A DNA stretch of 11,176 bases from Chloroflexota bacterium (GTDB lineage Bacteria; Chloroflexota; Chloroflexia; JAMDCE01), in assembly GCA_023489135.1 (NCBI GenBank), contig JAMDCE010000363.1, positions 1 to 11,176 of the forward strand. The letters run 5' to 3'. Each line of letters begins with the position of its first letter. The stretch's first letter is position 1. This document shows, one piece after another, positions 4,535-11,176 of this stretch. The position numbers and the translations under genes are program-made. The notes below the pieces were generated by a model. That model was not told the origin of the DNA. It saw only the letters and a list, made by a program, of their open reading frames with translations, and ran no database searches.

Positions 4535-5713
4535 TTATCGCTTCAAAATCGCCGCAATGCCCTGCCCACCGCCGATGCACATGGTGATCAAGCCGTAGGT
4601 AGCCTGACGCCGAGCCAGTTCGTAAATGGCCTTGACCGTGAGGAGCGCTCCGGTTGCCCCGATGGGATGTCCCATGGCTATAGCCCCACCGTTGACGTTG
4701 AGCTTGGACGAATCCATTTTCAGATCGCGGGCGACCGCCAGCGCCTGCGCGGCGAAGGCCTCGTTCAATTCGATGATATCCATTTGTTCCATTTTCAGGT
4801 CGGCCCGCCCAAGGGCCCTGTCCACGGCCGGGATGGGACCAATGCCCATATACTTTGGATCAACTCCCGCGGTCCCGTACGAGACGATGGTAGCCATTGG
4901 CGCGACCCCCAATGACTCCGCCTTAGCCCGGCTCATCAGAACCACAGCGGCGGCTCCGTCGTTCAACCCCGACGCATTGCCGGCCGTCACGGTTCCATCC
5001 GGCTTGAAGGCTGGTTTGAGGGACGCCAGTTTCTCCCGAGAAGTGTCGGCCCGGGGGTGCTCGTCGGTGTCAAAGATGTTTGGGGTCCCCTTGCGCGAAG
5101 GCAATTCCACGGGAACAATTTGCTCCTTGAAAAGGCCTTCCTGAATGGCCTTGACGGCTTTCTGTTGGCTCTCCAGAGCGAATTCATCCTGCTCCTGCCG
5201 GGTGATTCCATATTGCTCCGCCACGTTCTCGGCGGTAATGCCCATGTGAATTTTGTTAAAAGGATCGGTCACTCCACCGACCACCGGATCGATGAGCGTC
5301 TCGTTGCCCAGGCGGTAGCCCCAGCGGGCCTTGTCGATCCAGTAAGGACCGCGGCTCATAGATTCGGCGCCACCAGCGACTACTACCTGAGCATCGCCTG
5401 AAATGATGCTCTGAACACCGGAGATGATAGCCTGCATTCCCGATCCGCAGAGGCGGTTGACGGTGAACGCGGGAACCCCGATAGGTATGCCGGCGTTTAC
5501 GGCGACCACTCGCGAAATGTACATGTCGTCTGTGGAAGAGTGAATGACGTTGCCGAAGATAGTGTGCTCCACCTGATCGCCGGCGATACCGGCGCGCCGG
5601 AGGGCCTCCTTTACCGCTATTGACCCGAGAGTGGTAGCAGGAACGTCCCTGAGTGATCCGCCATAGGTCCCTATCGCCGTGCGGGCTCCGCTAGCTATGA
5701 TCACTTCTTCCAT
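4535..5713 (-). CDS. Acetyl-CoA C-acetyltransferase (thiolase)
   Basis: A 392-residue cytoplasmic thiolase that condenses two acetyl-CoA to acetoacetyl-CoA or cleaves 3-ketoacyl-CoA. All active-site blocks are present: nucleophilic C89 in NRLCGSGMQA, NEAF at 317-320, H349 in GHPIGATGA, and C379 in CIGGGQG. Length is typical for the degradative/biosynthetic thiolase group. The GHPIGATGA and NEAFAAQ signatures separate it from SCP2-like thiolases, but chain-length preference cannot be read. AGAGGAG precedes the ATG at good spacing, inside the 20-bp gap after the GlcD-type gene, so it should be the third gene of the minus-strand operon. That context suggests use in acyl-CoA oxidation or fermentation together with a hydroxy-acid oxidase. 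Confidence 0.95.
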   Translation of the reverse strand: MEEVIIASGARTAIGTYGGSLRDVPATTLGSIAVKEALRRAGIAGDQVEHTIFGNVIHSSTDDMYISRVVAVNAGIPIGVPAFTVNRLCGSGMQAIISGVQSIISGDAQVVVAGGAESMSRGPYWIDKARWGYRLGNETLIDPVVGGVTDPFNKIHMGITAENVAEQYGITRQEQDEFALESQQKAVKAIQEGLFKEQIVPVELPSRKGTPNIFDTDEHPRADTSREKLASLKPAFKPDGTVTAGNASGLNDGAAAVVLMSRAKAESLGVAPMATIVSYGTAGVDPKYMGIGPIPAVDRALGRADLKMEQMDIIELNEAFAAQALAVARDLKMDSSKLNVNGGAIAMGHPIGATGALLTVKAIYELARRQATYGLITMCIGGGQGIAAILKR

Positions 5714-5733
5714 TTGTCGTTTCTCCTCTTCTG

Positions 5734-7140
5734 TTATTTTCCCTTGTCTGGGAAGATCTTACCCGGGTTCAGAACTCCATTGGGATCGAGAGCATTCTTC
5801 AGTGTTCTCATAAACTCGGCCGTTTCAGCCCCCACGGCCATTTCCAGGAAGTCTTTCTTGTCCAGCCCCACGCCGTGCTCGCCGGAGATGGTTCCACCCA
5901 TTTCGACGGCCAGGGTCAGGATATCACGCACCGCCGCGTGGGCCGCCGCAGTCTCCTTTTGATCCCTTTTGTCGTAAAGGACGGTGGGGTGTAGATTGCC
6001 GTCGCCCGCGTGTCCTACCGTGAAAATGTGGATGGAGTACCGCTTCTTGATCTCATTTATTCGGGCGATGGCTGCGGGGATAGCGCTGCGCGGCACGACG
6101 ATATCCTCCGACAGCCGGTCCGGTCGAACTCTGGCCACGGCAATGGCGAAGGCCTGTCGTGCCTGCCACAGCGCCTCGGCTTGCTCTGATTTCTCGGGAA
6201 TCAGGATTGACCGGGCCCCGATTTCCTGGCACAGATGACCTATGGCGGCGGCGTGTTTCTCGACCGTCTCCTTTTCGCCGTCCACTTCGATCAACAGGAG
6301 GGCTTCGACGTCCTCCGGGAAGCCCGCGTGGGCGTGCTCTTCGATGTTTCGAACAGAAGCGCCGTCCATTAGCTCTATCTTAGACGGGACCATACCAGAG
6401 GCGATGATGCGGGAGACAGCCGCACCAGCCTCTTCCATCGACCCAAAAACGGCCATCATCGTCTTCCGTTGCTTGGGGAGGGGCAGCAACCGGAGGGTCA
6501 TTTCGGTAATGACGCAGAGTGTTCCTTCGGAACCGATGAACAACCGGGTAAGATCGTACCCGGTGACGTTCTTGATGGTCTTGCCGCCAGTCCTGATGAT
6601 CTCCCCGGTCGGCATTACCACTTGTAGACCTATCACGTAATCCTTGGTGACCCCGTATTTCACGCCGTGTGGTCCCCCGGAGCACTCCGCCATGTTTCCG
6701 CCGAGGGTGCACATCCTGATACTGCTGGGATCGGGGGGATAGAAAAGCCCCCTTTTCTCCACCTCAGCCTGGAACTGGGCGGTGACGACGCCCGGCTGGG
6801 CGACGGCGACGAGATTGGCCGGATCTATTTCGATGATCTTGTCCATACGCGATAGATCGAGGAGTATTCCTCCCTCCGCGGGAACACATCCCCCTGAGTT
6901 GCCCGTGCCCGCGCCTCGCGGCGTCACCGCGAATCCTTCCTGGTTGGCCAGCTTGAGGATGGCTGAGATCATTTCCGCGGAATCAGGCAGCACAACGGCG
7001 TCGGGCTGGCCCTCCAGAGCGGTGGCGTCGGAGGAATAACAGATTGTGTCCTCGGACGAGGTAAGAAGACCGCTCGGACCGGCAATATCTTTTAGCCTGG
7101 CAATCACATCGTGCTTCGACGCGCTTCCTGGTCGAGTCAT
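5734..7140 (-). CDS. glcD: GlcD-type FAD-linked oxidase (glycolate/D-lactate dehydrogenase)
   Basis: A 468-residue flavoprotein of the GlcD/D-lactate dehydrogenase family, oxidising a 2-hydroxy acid to a 2-keto acid. The FAD-binding domain covers about 45-220, with PRGAGTGNSGG at 74-84, a GGNMAE segment at 148-152, and GYDLTRLFIGSEGTLC. The C-terminal FAD-oxidase domain has the His-rich metal site GHAGDGNLHP (376-385) and EHGVG (421-425), and ends in the usual NPGKIFP. The ATG at 7140 overlaps the preceding stop codon as ATGA, with AAGGA just upstream, and is preferred over an in-frame GTG at 7161. GlcD usually works with GlcE and the Fe-S protein GlcF; here neither is present. A QueG-like Fe-S protein lies directly upstream instead. 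The substrate is not settled by sequence. Confidence 0.9.
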   Translation of the reverse strand: MTRPGSASKHDVIARLKDIAGPSGLLTSSEDTICYSSDATALEGQPDAVVLPDSAEMISAILKLANQEGFAVTPRGAGTGNSGGCVPAEGGILLDLSRMDKIIEIDPANLVAVAQPGVVTAQFQAEVEKRGLFYPPDPSSIRMCTLGGNMAECSGGPHGVKYGVTKDYVIGLQVVMPTGEIIRTGGKTIKNVTGYDLTRLFIGSEGTLCVITEMTLRLLPLPKQRKTMMAVFGSMEEAGAAVSRIIASGMVPSKIELMDGASVRNIEEHAHAGFPEDVEALLLIEVDGEKETVEKHAAAIGHLCQEIGARSILIPEKSEQAEALWQARQAFAIAVARVRPDRLSEDIVVPRSAIPAAIARINEIKKRYSIHIFTVGHAGDGNLHPTVLYDKRDQKETAAAHAAVRDILTLAVEMGGTISGEHGVGLDKKDFLEMAVGAETAEFMRTLKNALDPNGVLNPGKIFPDKGK

Positions 7141-7853
7141 CTGTCCTTGACTTTCCCCCACGGGCAGGCTTGCACACAGAGCCCGCAGACCCGGCTACCG
7201 ATCTGGGGTTTCCTGGCGAAAAAGCGAAGACGCTCGTCACATTTCTGGAGATGGAATAGGTATTTCTCCCCAGGCCTATCTGTATTTCTTTCCCGGCCTT
7301 CGATTGCCCCTGCGGGGCAGGCGGCTATGCAGGTGATGCAATTGCCGCAACGTTCTGCAACTGGCTCATCGGAAGTGAGGGGCCAATTCGTGAACACCGT
7401 GGCCAAACGTAGTCGGGGTCCCAGATCGGCATTAACCAGCAACTGGCTCTTCCCAATCCAACCAAGGCCCGCCGCCTGAGCCAGGACTTTATGAGATGCA
7501 GCGGCTCTAAAACCCTCTTTGTCTACGGTGCGTGAAGCCGGGATGGAAAGGGCCAGGTAGCCTTGCGTCTTGATATGGGAGACAGTGTGGTCGGTCAGGC
7601 TATCCAAAACGCCGTTGACCGCGCGGTAGTGCTGAGCGTAGGCCGGCGTCGGATCGCTTATGGTGATGGCGTCCACGATGGGATCGGAGAGGCGGATGGC
7701 CAGCGATATCGCGCGACAAAAGGGGCTGGCGAGGTCAGGTGGAATGGTCTCGAACGTGGGCACATTCGCCAGGTCAGCTATTCCTACTAGGTCGACACCT
7801 CGAGACTTAAGATGCTCCTTGAGCTTTGCGGCGGTGTCTTTGCTGCGCGGCAC
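7137..7853 (-). CDS. QueG-like double 4Fe-4S protein, probably not epoxyqueuosine reductase
   Basis: A 238-residue cytoplasmic Fe-S protein resembling the core of QueG: an AGLGWIGK block (128-135), then two cysteine sets, C169/C172/C175/C179-Pro and C205 with C223/C226/C230-Pro, enough for two [4Fe-4S] clusters, and the ending ACPWGK. True QueG is about 350-390 residues and carries a conserved aspartate about 13 residues before AGLGW; here that position reads FRAAASHK with no Asp. It is therefore better called a QueG-like ferredoxin, and cobalamin binding is open. It starts at GTG (7853) with only a weak Shine-Dalgarno. Its stop overlaps the GlcD-type start, so translation is coupled; electron transfer from the flavoprotein is a reasonable inference. 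Driven by the promoter at 7944-7971. Confidence 0.8.
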   Translation of the reverse strand: MPRSKDTAAKLKEHLKSRGVDLVGIADLANVPTFETIPPDLASPFCRAISLAIRLSDPIVDAITISDPTPAYAQHYRAVNGVLDSLTDHTVSHIKTQGYLALSIPASRTVDKEGFRAAASHKVLAQAAGLGWIGKSQLLVNADLGPRLRLATVFTNWPLTSDEPVAERCGNCITCIAACPAGAIEGRERNTDRPGEKYLFHLQKCDERLRFFARKPQIGSRVCGLCVQACPWGKVKDR

Positions 7854-8307: not shown

Positions 8308-9345
8308 ATGGGCGAGGTATCCAGGTACAGTGTGGTCGCGATCCAGACAGCTAATCCCAACGGGCGCGACAAGCAAACCGTTCGTCGCAATCTGCAACGC
8401 AACATCGCCTTGATAGAGACGGCCATTACTGGCTACTCTTTCACTGGGTTTCCCCTCAAGTTGTTTGCGTTTCCGGAGCTTACCGTCCACGGCATCCCCT
8501 ATATGACTGCGAAGGAGGCCCTGGATAGTGGTGCCTGTGTGACCATTCCGGGCGAGGAGACGGATAGGTTAGTGGAAGTCGCCAAGGAAAACGACATCTA
8601 CATCGAGACGGGTAGTTTTCTCGAGTACGATCCAAAATGGCCCAGCCACGTCTTCAACACGGCATGCATAATCGGGCCGAAGGGGATCGAGGCCAAATAC
8701 CGCAAGGTCCAAACGTGGGTGCCTCTCGATTTCTGGACGAGCCCTCATTCCTTAGAGGGCTACGACGAAGAGTTGTTCCCTGTGGCCGATCTTCCTATAG
8801 GCAAGCTTGCCGTAGGCATCTGCTACGACTTCATCTTCCCCGAGCTTCTCAGAGAGTACACGATGAAGGGGGCCGAGGTTCTTATCAGGGCCTCGGCCTA
8901 TATGCCGCCTTGGGGCCCGGAGTCTCCTACCAACTGGTGGACCATTATCTCCCAGGTTAGATCTCTAGAAAACGTGGCTTACGGTGTGCACGTGAATCAA
9001 GGAGCGTCTCTGCGCGATGTTCCTCCTTTTGCCTGGCCAGGTGGGACCTGTATTGTGGACTACGAGGGAAGAGTGCAAACTCAGACTCAACAGGTGGGAG
9101 AGCAGCTTGTCCTCGGCCATATCGACCTCGACCGCCTTAGAGAGTGGCGAGCCAACACATACACTCACCTAATGCCGGCCCATCTCCGGTCCGAAGCCTA
9201 TACCTACCTCAGCAAGCCTCGGTTTCCGGCCAGAACCTTCGCGAAGGATCAGTTGGTAACTACGGACGAACTCGCGCGGCAGATTGATGCCGCCCGGGAA
9301 CGGGTTTACGGAGAAATAGCGACCAGGTATAAGCGAGAACCATAG
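8308..9345 (+). CDS. Nitrilase-superfamily aliphatic amidase/formamidase-type hydrolase
   Basis: A 345-residue carbon-nitrogen hydrolase. The catalytic triad is visible: E57 in FAFPELTVHG, K133 in YRKVQTWVP, and C172 in GICYDFIFPE. Length and internal motifs (IPGEETD, AMKGAE-like MKGAEVLIR, NVAYGVHVNQGA, EWRAN near 282) match the aliphatic amidase/formamidase branch (AmiE/AmiF) more closely than true nitrilases. The expected reaction is hydrolysis of a small amide to the acid and ammonia in the cytoplasm; the exact amide is unknown. AAAGGAG lies 9 bases before the ATG, with a second AAGGA closer in. The SDR gene follows after 96 bp, probably in the same transcript from the promoter at 8073-8101. 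Confidence 0.88.
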   Translation: MGEVSRYSVVAIQTANPNGRDKQTVRRNLQRNIALIETAITGYSFTGFPLKLFAFPELTVHGIPYMTAKEALDSGACVTIPGEETDRLVEVAKENDIYIETGSFLEYDPKWPSHVFNTACIIGPKGIEAKYRKVQTWVPLDFWTSPHSLEGYDEELFPVADLPIGKLAVGICYDFIFPELLREYTMKGAEVLIRASAYMPPWGPESPTNWWTIISQVRSLENVAYGVHVNQGASLRDVPPFAWPGGTCIVDYEGRVQTQTQQVGEQLVLGHIDLDRLREWRANTYTHLMPAHLRSEAYTYLSKPRFPARTFAKDQLVTTDELARQIDAARERVYGEIATRYKREP

Positions 9346-9441: not shown

Positions 9442-10203
9442 ATGAGGCTTCAGGACAAGGTGGCCGTCATCACGGGGGCGAGCTCCGGAATCGGACGCGC
9501 CGCCGCCACCCTTTTTGCTCGGGAAGGGGCCAGGGTAGTAGTGGCGGATATCGATGAGGTTGAGGGCCATAGTACCGTCAGCAGAGTGCGCAAGCAGGAC
9601 GGGCAGGCCGAGTTCATACGCACCGATGTCTCGAGTTCCAAGGATGTGCAAAGCATGGTTGGCTTTACCGTGGAGAAGTACGGGAAGATCGACGTTCTCT
9701 TTGCGAATGCCGGACTGGAGATCATAGGCCTCACCGGTGATACCACGGAGGAGGAGTATGACCATATGATGGAGGTTCTCCTCAAGGGAGTGTGGCTTTG
9801 CGCGAAGTACTGTCTGCCAGCCATGATTGAGAACGGGGGAGGATCCATCGTCAATACCGCTTCGGTGGCAGGGCTGGTAGCCTGGCCAGGAGGCGGGATC
9901 TATGGCACGGCGAAGGCGGGGGTGATAGGTTTGACTCGAGCCATTGCCGTAGACTATGCCCGGCACCACATTCGCTGCAACTGCATTTGTCCGGGGAATA
10001 TCTGGACCCCCCTGTCCGAGAAGTATGTTGCCCTTCAACCGAACCCAGCGGCGGCCCGGGAAGCCCTGGACAGAGCTCATCCCCTCGGGCGAAGCGGGTC
10101 TCCCGAGGAAGCAGCGCAGGTCGCCCTATTCTTGGCCTCCGACGAGTCGTCTTTCGTCACCGGCGCCACCTACACAGTGGATGGAGGACTTACCGCCCGA
10201 TAG
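9442..10203 (+). CDS. Classical SDR-family NAD-dependent dehydrogenase
   Basis: A 253-residue short-chain dehydrogenase/reductase. It has the Rossmann dinucleotide motif TGASSGIG (11-18), D36 at the end of the second strand (favouring NAD over NADP), NAG at 89-91, and the catalytic S141, Y154 and K158 (YxxxK). It ends in the usual TGATYTVDGG. The overall form resembles 3-oxoacyl-ACP reductase/glucose dehydrogenase-type SDRs, but the substrate cannot be told. The start has only a weak GGATG element before the ATG; the start is nevertheless fixed by the family-typical LQDKVAVITG opening. The amidase gene is 96 bp upstream with no promoter seen between. No terminator is visible before the riboswitch region. 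Confidence 0.92.
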   Translation: MRLQDKVAVITGASSGIGRAAATLFAREGARVVVADIDEVEGHSTVSRVRKQDGQAEFIRTDVSSSKDVQSMVGFTVEKYGKIDVLFANAGLEIIGLTGDTTEEEYDHMMEVLLKGVWLCAKYCLPAMIENGGGSIVNTASVAGLVAWPGGGIYGTAKAGVIGLTRAIAVDYARHHIRCNCICPGNIWTPLSEKYVALQPNPAAAREALDRAHPLGRSGSPEEAAQVALFLASDESSFVTGATYTVDGGLTAR

Positions 10204-10273
10204 AATCTGCAGTCTGGGTTCCCACGTCTGAATAAGAAAACGCCCCAAAAGCGACAGAGAACAGAAGGTATAC

Positions 10274-10326
10274 CACCTAGTGTGTGAAGAGTTAAATAAG
10301 AACGCCAGTTTATAACACATAGTGTA
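10274..10326. promoter_or_regulatory. Pair of CAC-NTA-GTG sites, candidate operators
   Basis: CACCTAGTGTG (10274-10284) and CACATAGTGTA (10316-10326) agree at 9 of 11 positions and share the palindromic core CAC-NTA-GTG. They lie 42 bp apart, about four helical turns, and the second ends 8 bp before the -35 box of the riboswitch promoter. This fits two half-complexes of one regulator on the same DNA face. No regulator is encoded in the window. Confidence 0.35.
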
Positions 10327-10334
10327 CAAAGGTA

Positions 10335-10363
10335 TTGACAAACTAGGAAACCAATGATAGGAT
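10335..10363 (+). promoter_or_regulatory. Promoter of the glycine riboswitch transcript
   Basis: TTGACA (6/6) at 10335-10340 and TAGGAT (4/6) at 10358-10363, spaced 17 bp. The predicted start is near 10370, about 36 nt before the first aptamer. Confidence 0.7.
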
Positions 10364-10405
10364 AAGAGAAATCAACGGTGGGCAACCGTGAATGCCAATT
10401 GGGTT

Positions 10406-10584
10406 GGTGGTGGGAGAGACCGCTTGCGGCGCTGAAGGGGCAAGGCACTGCCGAAACTCTCAAGCAAAAGGACCACCGTCACCGTTCCTCTGGAGAGACC
10501 CCCCCAACTAGATTGGGTTTGGGCACCGAAGGAGCTAGTCCCAATGAGGGATGAATCTCTCAGGTAAAAAGACAGGGGCAGAGG
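10406..10584 (+). promoter_or_regulatory. Tandem glycine riboswitch
   Basis: Two successive aptamers match the glycine riboswitch pattern. Aptamer 1 (10406-10477): stem GGTGGT/ACCACC closes it, with GGGAGAGAC, the core GCTGAAGGGGCAAG and CCGAAACTCTCAAGCAAAAG. Aptamer 2 (about 10487-10584): CTGGAGAGACC, core GCACCGAAGGAGC, and AATCTCTCAGGTAAAAAGAC. The linker is short, as in known tandem switches. Glycine binding usually turns downstream expression on. An intrinsic terminator overlaps the 3' strand of aptamer 2's closing stem. The next gene is an iron-type alcohol dehydrogenase about 420 nt downstream; the usual targets are glycine cleavage genes or transporters. Confidence 0.93.
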
Positions 10585-10601
10585 GTTTCCCTGCCTTTTT
10601 T
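10577..10601 (+). terminator. Intrinsic terminator of the riboswitch
   Basis: Stem GGCA(GA)GGG with CCCTGCC (10577-10585 with 10589-10595), a two-base bulge, a TTT loop, then six T (10596-10601). Its left arm includes CAGAGG (10579-10584), which can instead pair with CCTCTG (10487-10492) to close aptamer 2. The two folds are exclusive, which is the expected expression platform for a glycine-activated switch. Confidence 0.85.
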
Positions 10602-11024
10602 GTTTGCCGTGACGGCAATCGCTGACTACCCCGAGTCCCAGATTGTCGCGTGCGGGCTGCGGTCACCTCGCTGGACTAGGCCACTCTTTTGTCCCTATCT
10701 TAGCTGGCCTGCCGATCCAGCGACCTTTACCAGTGCCGTCCGCTCCGAAATTGCGCTAACAGCGTTCCGGAAGCGCTACGGTGCCACCCGTGAAAGCCGC
10801 CAATTTGTGGCACCACTTCGCCCAACTCTGCTCAACTCGCATTCCCTCCTTGGTGACGGCCTTTTCACCATCACTAAGGTGAAATCTAACGTGGACGTCG
10901 TCAATCTATCCTTTGCTCCGAGGAGCCAAGCCACCAAGTAGGCTTGACCTTGTAGCTACACACTGCCACTGGAGCGAGCAGGTGTGGAATGTGACAAATC
11001 TACTACTCAAGAAGGGAGTGCATC
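10602..11024. other. Gene-free stretch between riboswitch terminator and alcohol dehydrogenase
   Basis: No convincing gene. The one open frame on the plus strand starts inside the terminator T-run, has no Shine-Dalgarno and encodes nothing recognisable. AGCG at 10761-10764 can pair with CGCT at 10754-10757 or, around the palindrome TTCCGGAA (10765-10772), with CGCT at 10774-10777. TTTCACC (10863-10869) and GGTGAAA (10878-10884) form a perfect 7-bp inverted repeat. A TTGACC at 10944-10949 has no suitable -10. A leader this long may hold further regulation. Confidence 0.45.
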
Positions 11025-11176
11025 ATGGTTAAGGAGTTGCGGCCAACAGCGTGGGAGGTTTGGCCCCCTTACATCCAGTTCGGTGAGGGAGCCGTCGAGA
11101 ATCTCGCCGCTTATGTCGTCGAGTTAGGCCTGAGAAAGCCACTGATCGTGGCTGATAAGGGCATTACGAAAGCTGG
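11025..11176 (+). CDS. Iron-containing alcohol dehydrogenase, N-terminal part only
   Basis: The first 50 codons are in the window; the gene runs off the right edge. The start MVKELRPTAWEVWPPY leads into FGEGAVENL (about 19-27) and PLIVADKGITKAG, the typical opening of group III Fe-dependent alcohol dehydrogenases (strand, FGxGA, then LIVxDKG in the NAD-binding domain). These enzymes interconvert alcohols or polyols and aldehydes or ketones with NAD(P). The metal ligands would be further on. GGGAG at 11014-11018 is 6 bases before the ATG. It is the first gene downstream of the glycine riboswitch. Confidence 0.85.
   Translation, partial: MVKELRPTAWEVWPPYIQFGEGAVENLAAYVVELGLRKPLIVADKGITKA

Follow-up and report, generated by a model that had tools for sequence, protein, structure and literature searches.

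Targets of glycine riboswitches have been sorted in three surveys. The main text of one assigns them to the metabolism of glycine or serine and to the transport of glycine (PMC3766115); that of another names gcvT, malate synthase and serC, and leaves about 14% of the sites without an identified function (PMC2211319). A further main text distinguishes GCV, transporter, other glycine metabolism and a class called Other (PMC6944388), which may hold an alcohol dehydrogenase. The word dehydrogenase is absent from the main texts of the three papers, and no report of a glycine riboswitch paired with an iron-type alcohol dehydrogenase (Fe-ADH) was found in the open papers searched. The Bacillus subtilis gcvT riboswitch is described as an ON switch, acting via a transcription terminator (text of PMC5666159).

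The DNA analyzed here, called the window, is the whole 11,176-nt stretch of a Chloroflexota contig. A glycine riboswitch lies close to its end, followed on the same strand by the 5' part of an Fe-ADH gene (Table 1). The reading favored here, to which a probability of about 0.6 is given, is that a glycine ON switch controls a transcription unit having the Fe-ADH as first gene. Riboswitch targets reveal which enzymes a cell couples to a metabolite. If the reading holds, membership in the glycine regulon would offer a new substrate clue for one of the many unassigned Fe-ADHs; the mechanism of the switch would be a known one.

Riboswitch and expression platform

The earlier note had described promoter, aptamers and terminator as forming a complete glycine riboswitch, and each of the parts was recovered. 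The promoter-like site matches the consensus in 10/12 positions, and is the sole one in the 10200-11176 interval, where 0.5 are expected in shuffled sequences. Both aptamers score well above the RF00504 cut-off (32 bits). The scan of the whole window gave aptamer 1 only, and aptamer 2 emerged when the 10478-10612 interval was scanned alone. The layout is that of tandem riboswitches, as the aptamers adjoin, are served by one expression platform, and the terminator shares bases with P1b. The model of the glycine-GGAnGA variant (RF03166) similarly spans both aptamers, but the alignment scores 67.8 bits, less than the gathering score of 110, and the element has therefore been filed in the ordinary class. 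Judged by its sequence, the riboswitch is real and ordinary in kind, and glycine is its presumable ligand.

Table 1. Positions of the features in the window, and basis of each assignment
Feature	Positions	Strand	Basis
BktB-type thiolase	within 4535-7853	-	603.5 bits, above NF006552 cut-off (565)
GlcD-like FAD oxidase	within 4535-7853	-	TIGR00387, 497.7 of 567.9 bits
QueG/RDH-like 4Fe-4S protein	within 4535-7853	-	under both cut-offs
Formamidase-like CN hydrolase	8308-9345	+	under the cut-offs of each of the 9 listed NCBIfam models
SDR	9442-10203	+	profile search
Promoter-like site, sigma-70-type, TTGACA-17-TAGGAT, TG before -10	10335-10363	+	consensus scan
Small leader hairpin ACGGUGGGCAACCGU, ACGGU-GGGCA-ACCGU	10375-10389	+	sequence
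Tandem glycine riboswitch	10401-10585	+	RF00504
Glycine aptamer 1	10401-10485	+	RF00504, 62.2 bits, E 3e-11 (whole-window scan)
Glycine aptamer 2	10480-10585	+	RF00504, 58.4 bits, E 3.6e-12 (10478-10612 alone)
P1b, closing helix of aptamer 2	10487-10492 with 10573-10578	+	listed pairs
Intrinsic terminator (stem 10574-10598, one bulge; six U at 10596-10601)	10574-10601	+	folding
TTG-started 113-codon frame, no support	10600-10941	+	open reading frame
Leader without detectable coding signal, 423 nt	10602-11024	+	codon score, Pfam, similarity search
Ribosome-binding-site-like AGAAGGGAG before ATG 11025	11010-11018	+	read from sequence
Fe-ADH gene, 5' part, 50 codons, cut by window end	11025-11176	+	Pfam and P0122 identity

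Residues ACGGUG in the leader could alternatively pair, as judged by eye, with CACCGU in the linker (10479-10484), to form a 6 bp helix. A leader-linker kink-turn (P0) is reported for >90% of tandem glycine riboswitches in the text of PMC5666159; in the linker between the two aptamers of the window, no GA-type kink-turn is evident by eye. Free folds of the aptamers are no more stable than those of shuffled sequences (z 0.80 for 10395-10490, -0.17 for 10485-10582, 0.10 for 10485-10605).

The 5' arm of the terminator and the 3' strand of P1b have residues 10574-10578 in common, and the two structures are mutually exclusive. This overlap was computed directly, as were the aptamers and the identity and position of the ADH. 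The 10573-10601 segment folds to -12.9 kcal/mol, and the stretch 10565-10605 has a z of -1.83, 10/200 shuffles being equally stable. The stem was not picked up by a consensus terminator scan of the + strand, probably because of its bulge. Free folding of the 10480-10612 interval favors the terminator (-48.8 kcal/mol); the P1b form is 12 kcal/mol less stable in a model which omits glycine and tertiary contacts, and if P1b is forced just a weak G-U-rich hairpin is left in the terminator region. The preference for the terminator, like the unremarkable free folds of the aptamers, weighs against the favored reading.

Base sharing between P1b and terminator predicts an antitermination switch turned on by glycine, the direction being suggested by a layout like that of B. 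subtilis gcvT. In the absence of the ligand, the nascent RNA would form the terminator stem, and transcription would end at the U tract. In the presence of glycine, residues 10573-10578 would be taken up by P1b, the terminator would be blocked, and RNA polymerase would read on through a long leader into the unit headed by the Fe-ADH, which may either be the actual target, or head an operon carrying more glycine genes past the contig end.

The Fe-ADH gene

The 50 residues encoded before the window end score 22.7 bits against the Pfam Fe-ADH model (PF00465), below the cut-off of 31.3. The one protein retrieved with them, P0122, is encoded on a 10,176-base record, has 393 aa and is 100% identical over the entire 50 residues; on this stretch of identity, P0122 is probably the product of the same gene, or of a near-identical copy. 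P0122 passes PF00465 with 174.2 bits, and the claim that the first gene after the riboswitch encodes an Fe-type alcohol dehydrogenase is thus confirmed.

P0122 looks like an intact, full Fe-ADH. It matches over the full length members of the PF00465 family such as the NAD-dependent methanol dehydrogenase 8zrl and the lactaldehyde reductase 1rrm. The family Asp and His positions are conserved, and residues D203, H207, H273 and H287 are invariant in 120/120 aligned sequences, P0122 included. We take these four residues to sit at the metal-ligand places of FucO (one Asp and three His). P0122 falls below the cut-offs of all the 17 NCBIfam models listed, so that a substrate is not assignable in this way; the best scores are those for lactaldehyde reductase (383.3 of 523.15) and choline dehydrogenase GbsB (376.6 of 550). 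Since 8zrl is the best sequence match among solved structures, redox conversion of a short-chain alcohol or aldehyde is the likeliest guess. The nearest relatives of P0122 are a JGI protein (57%) and, among proteins with the organism named, one from a Chloroflexi MAG (54%).

The pairing with the riboswitch is supported by the location of the gene on the same strand, by the ribosome-binding-site-like sequence preceding the ATG, and by the codon score of the ADH start (0.167), the highest of the stretch. The Fe-ADH is a real gene, and the first supported one behind the riboswitch, and is expected to be reached by its transcript.

Genes for a CN hydrolase and an SDR lie directly upstream of the riboswitch, on the same strand. 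The nearest relative of the CN hydrolase is 77% identical, the nearest with the organism named, from a Desulfotomaculales MAG, 64%. Three pairs of CN-hydrolase and Fe-ADH homologues come from contigs of exactly equal length (3973, 7068, 7718), which hints weakly at linkage. Coincidences of this type amount to 3/117, versus 0 to 5 when lengths are shifted by 1 to 10, too faint a signal for linkage to be claimed. Thiolase, FAD oxidase and 4Fe-4S protein genes reside farther upstream on the opposite strand.

Glycine riboswitches in other genomes

A genome (G001), taken from a locus of the CN-hydrolase profile scan, served as center for the search of similar arrangements. Glycine riboswitches were found in 36/98 relatives around G001, and in 222/398 genomes of its phylum. 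None of 22 riboswitch loci around the relatives features an Fe-ADH, GcvT being found at 6 and AgcS at 16. A census was made of the 100 best-scoring of 143 typed riboswitch sites, distributed in 82 genomes, analyzing up to 5 kb of downstream DNA (12 sites have less than 5 kb, 8 of these 12 less than 3 kb). An Fe-ADH was found downstream of 0/100 riboswitches on either strand (tblastn, E 1e-5); all 30 Fe-ADH loci used as positive control were detected (30/30). A known regulon member is a gene found repeatedly behind the riboswitch in relatives, and the Fe-ADH is not such a gene in the one phylum surveyed; the census contains no close relatives of the window, and the count bounds the frequency of the pairing, rather than its conservation in the lineage of the window.

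Searches from the opposite side gave the same picture. None of the 30 Fe-ADH loci (3.1-4.1 kb) carries a glycine riboswitch, or reaches the cut-off of any other Rfam family. Among the Fe-ADH matches listed from the 398 genomes, the best is 46% identical to P0122, so that the window probably belongs to another phylum; among those listed from plasmids, the best is 44% identical. Viral contigs contain neither relatives of P0122 nor exact copies of a 43-base aptamer-1 stretch. The riboswitch region matches two Rhizobium plasmids, over ~63 bases only. When 48 CN-hydrolase loci, several with short flanks, were compared with seven window proteins and P0122 (E 1e-10), an SDR turned up once (33% identity, locus L023), and an Fe-ADH at none. 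These searches yielded no locus orthologous to that of the window.

Genes found downstream of the census riboswitches include GcvT (40/100) and AgcS (7/100). First genes at the other 53 sites were clustered by similarity, and one member per cluster, plus 4/7 singletons, were identified. They fall into GrdX (20), thioredoxin (6), SerC (6), GcvPA (4), class-V aminotransferase (3), GrdG-type subunit (3) and periplasmic binding protein (2) clusters; 7 are singletons, and 2 sites have no frame. This gene content makes glycine genes a strong prior for the target of a riboswitch. It speaks for an arrangement in which the ADH heads an ordinary glycine operon, and gcv, glycine reductase or transporter genes located past 11176 explain the switch, as GcvT, AgcS and, at 39 of the 53 other sites, the GrdX, thioredoxin, SerC, GcvPA and GrdG-type clusters account for most of the census. 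Against it, no census site has an Fe-ADH before or among the glycine genes. The arrangement is a tentative but real candidate; it is one case of the reading favored here, and the confidences given to the two overlap.

In three genomes, one contig carries two separate glycine riboswitches at a distance of about 9 kb (L116 and L161 in G311, L138 and L191 in G286, L140 and L189 in G197); in all, one riboswitch precedes GcvT, the other a gene of the GcvPA cluster (GcvPA was identified for L116). Other unusual riboswitch neighbors are a PrdR-like sigma-54 regulator (L186:266-2134, 390 of 795 bits), found behind a glycine riboswitch, and a TctC-type binding protein, encoded 1.6 kb past a glycine riboswitch (L125:1703-2734).

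Gap region and target of the switch

The ADH start is separated from the U tract by 423 nt, and from the aptamer-2 motif CTCARGYAAAA by 466 nt. In the census the distance between motif and gene, measurable at 82/100 sites (16 lack the motif, 2 a frame), has a median of 202 nt, and is at least 460 nt at 15/82 sites, a number inflated by sites at which the true first gene was missed, as L108, L174 and L199. A spacing of 466 nt is unusual, yet compatible with control of the ADH.

A gap of 423 nt is long enough to conceal another promoter. According to the earlier note, an independent promoter just upstream of 11025, not joined to the riboswitch by any transcript, would refute the pairing. Sigma-70 sites matching at least 9/12 positions are missing from the gap, the best relaxed match (10672-10701) being 8/12, and the best sigma-54-like matches are 7/10. 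A strong sigma-70 promoter thus found no support; weaker promoters, or promoters of other types, may be present. The riboswitch could accordingly be an orphan, left by a rearrangement in which the former target was lost, with the ADH transcribed from a promoter of its own in the gap. The length of the gap, devoid of coding signal, and the absence of the pairing from all the other genomes examined fit this history. Aptamers, terminator and promoter look intact, though, and decay would not keep them; no remnant of a gene was found when the six frames of the gap were compared at E 1 with 668 census and homologue proteins, and sigma-70 matches at the above threshold are lacking. Altogether the orphan origin appears unlikely.

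A small protein encoded in the gap, for example by the 113-codon frame, is a most improbable first gene: the frame belongs to an open stretch of 128 codons between two stops, and 20/100 census sites begin with a small-protein cluster (the tested member is GrdX, 131 aa), but the frame starts with TTG, has no clear ribosome-binding site, overlaps the U tract, lacks matches in Pfam at E 10 and, at E 1, among the 668 proteins, which include the GrdX cluster, and has a codon score of -0.035, versus 0.071 to 0.161 in 7/8 window genes. The eighth gene scores -0.010, wrong frames of the window genes -0.365 to 0.071, and the score of the 113-codon frame is within the range of the latter. With no Pfam match, no similarity, and a codon score like those of wrong frames, coding or remnant genes in the gap were rejected.

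Control by glycine of a unit headed by the Fe-ADH remains the favored reading, an operon leader being included in it. The narrower proposal that the Fe-ADH is a dedicated target, i.e. that excess glycine induces an NAD-dependent oxidoreductase acting on short-chain alcohols or aldehydes, is less likely, and is put forward with some doubt. The enzyme might, for example, balance one-carbon units and NADH derived from glycine breakdown. If true, a dedicated ADH target would tie glycine sensing to alcohol redox metabolism. The interpretation of the earlier note, either a new regulon member or gcv-type genes following beyond the window, is partly supported. The locus is best viewed as an ordinary riboswitch with an unusual neighbor that may be its target, the ADH being at most a new regulon member.

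Riboswitches located before genes outside glycine cleavage and transport have been described in metagenomes, the targets being malate synthase (glcB) and serC. According to the main text of PMC2211319, glcB accounts for ~20% of 119 cases, whereas the ADH pairing is a single case. The closest relative in terms of architecture is the B. subtilis gcvT riboswitch (RF00504). As described in the text of PMC5666159, this element has, like that of the window, two aptamers, one platform and a terminator next to aptamer 2, and turns gcvT on in glycine; in the window the first supported gene is not gcvT, but an Fe-ADH located 423 nt past the U tract.
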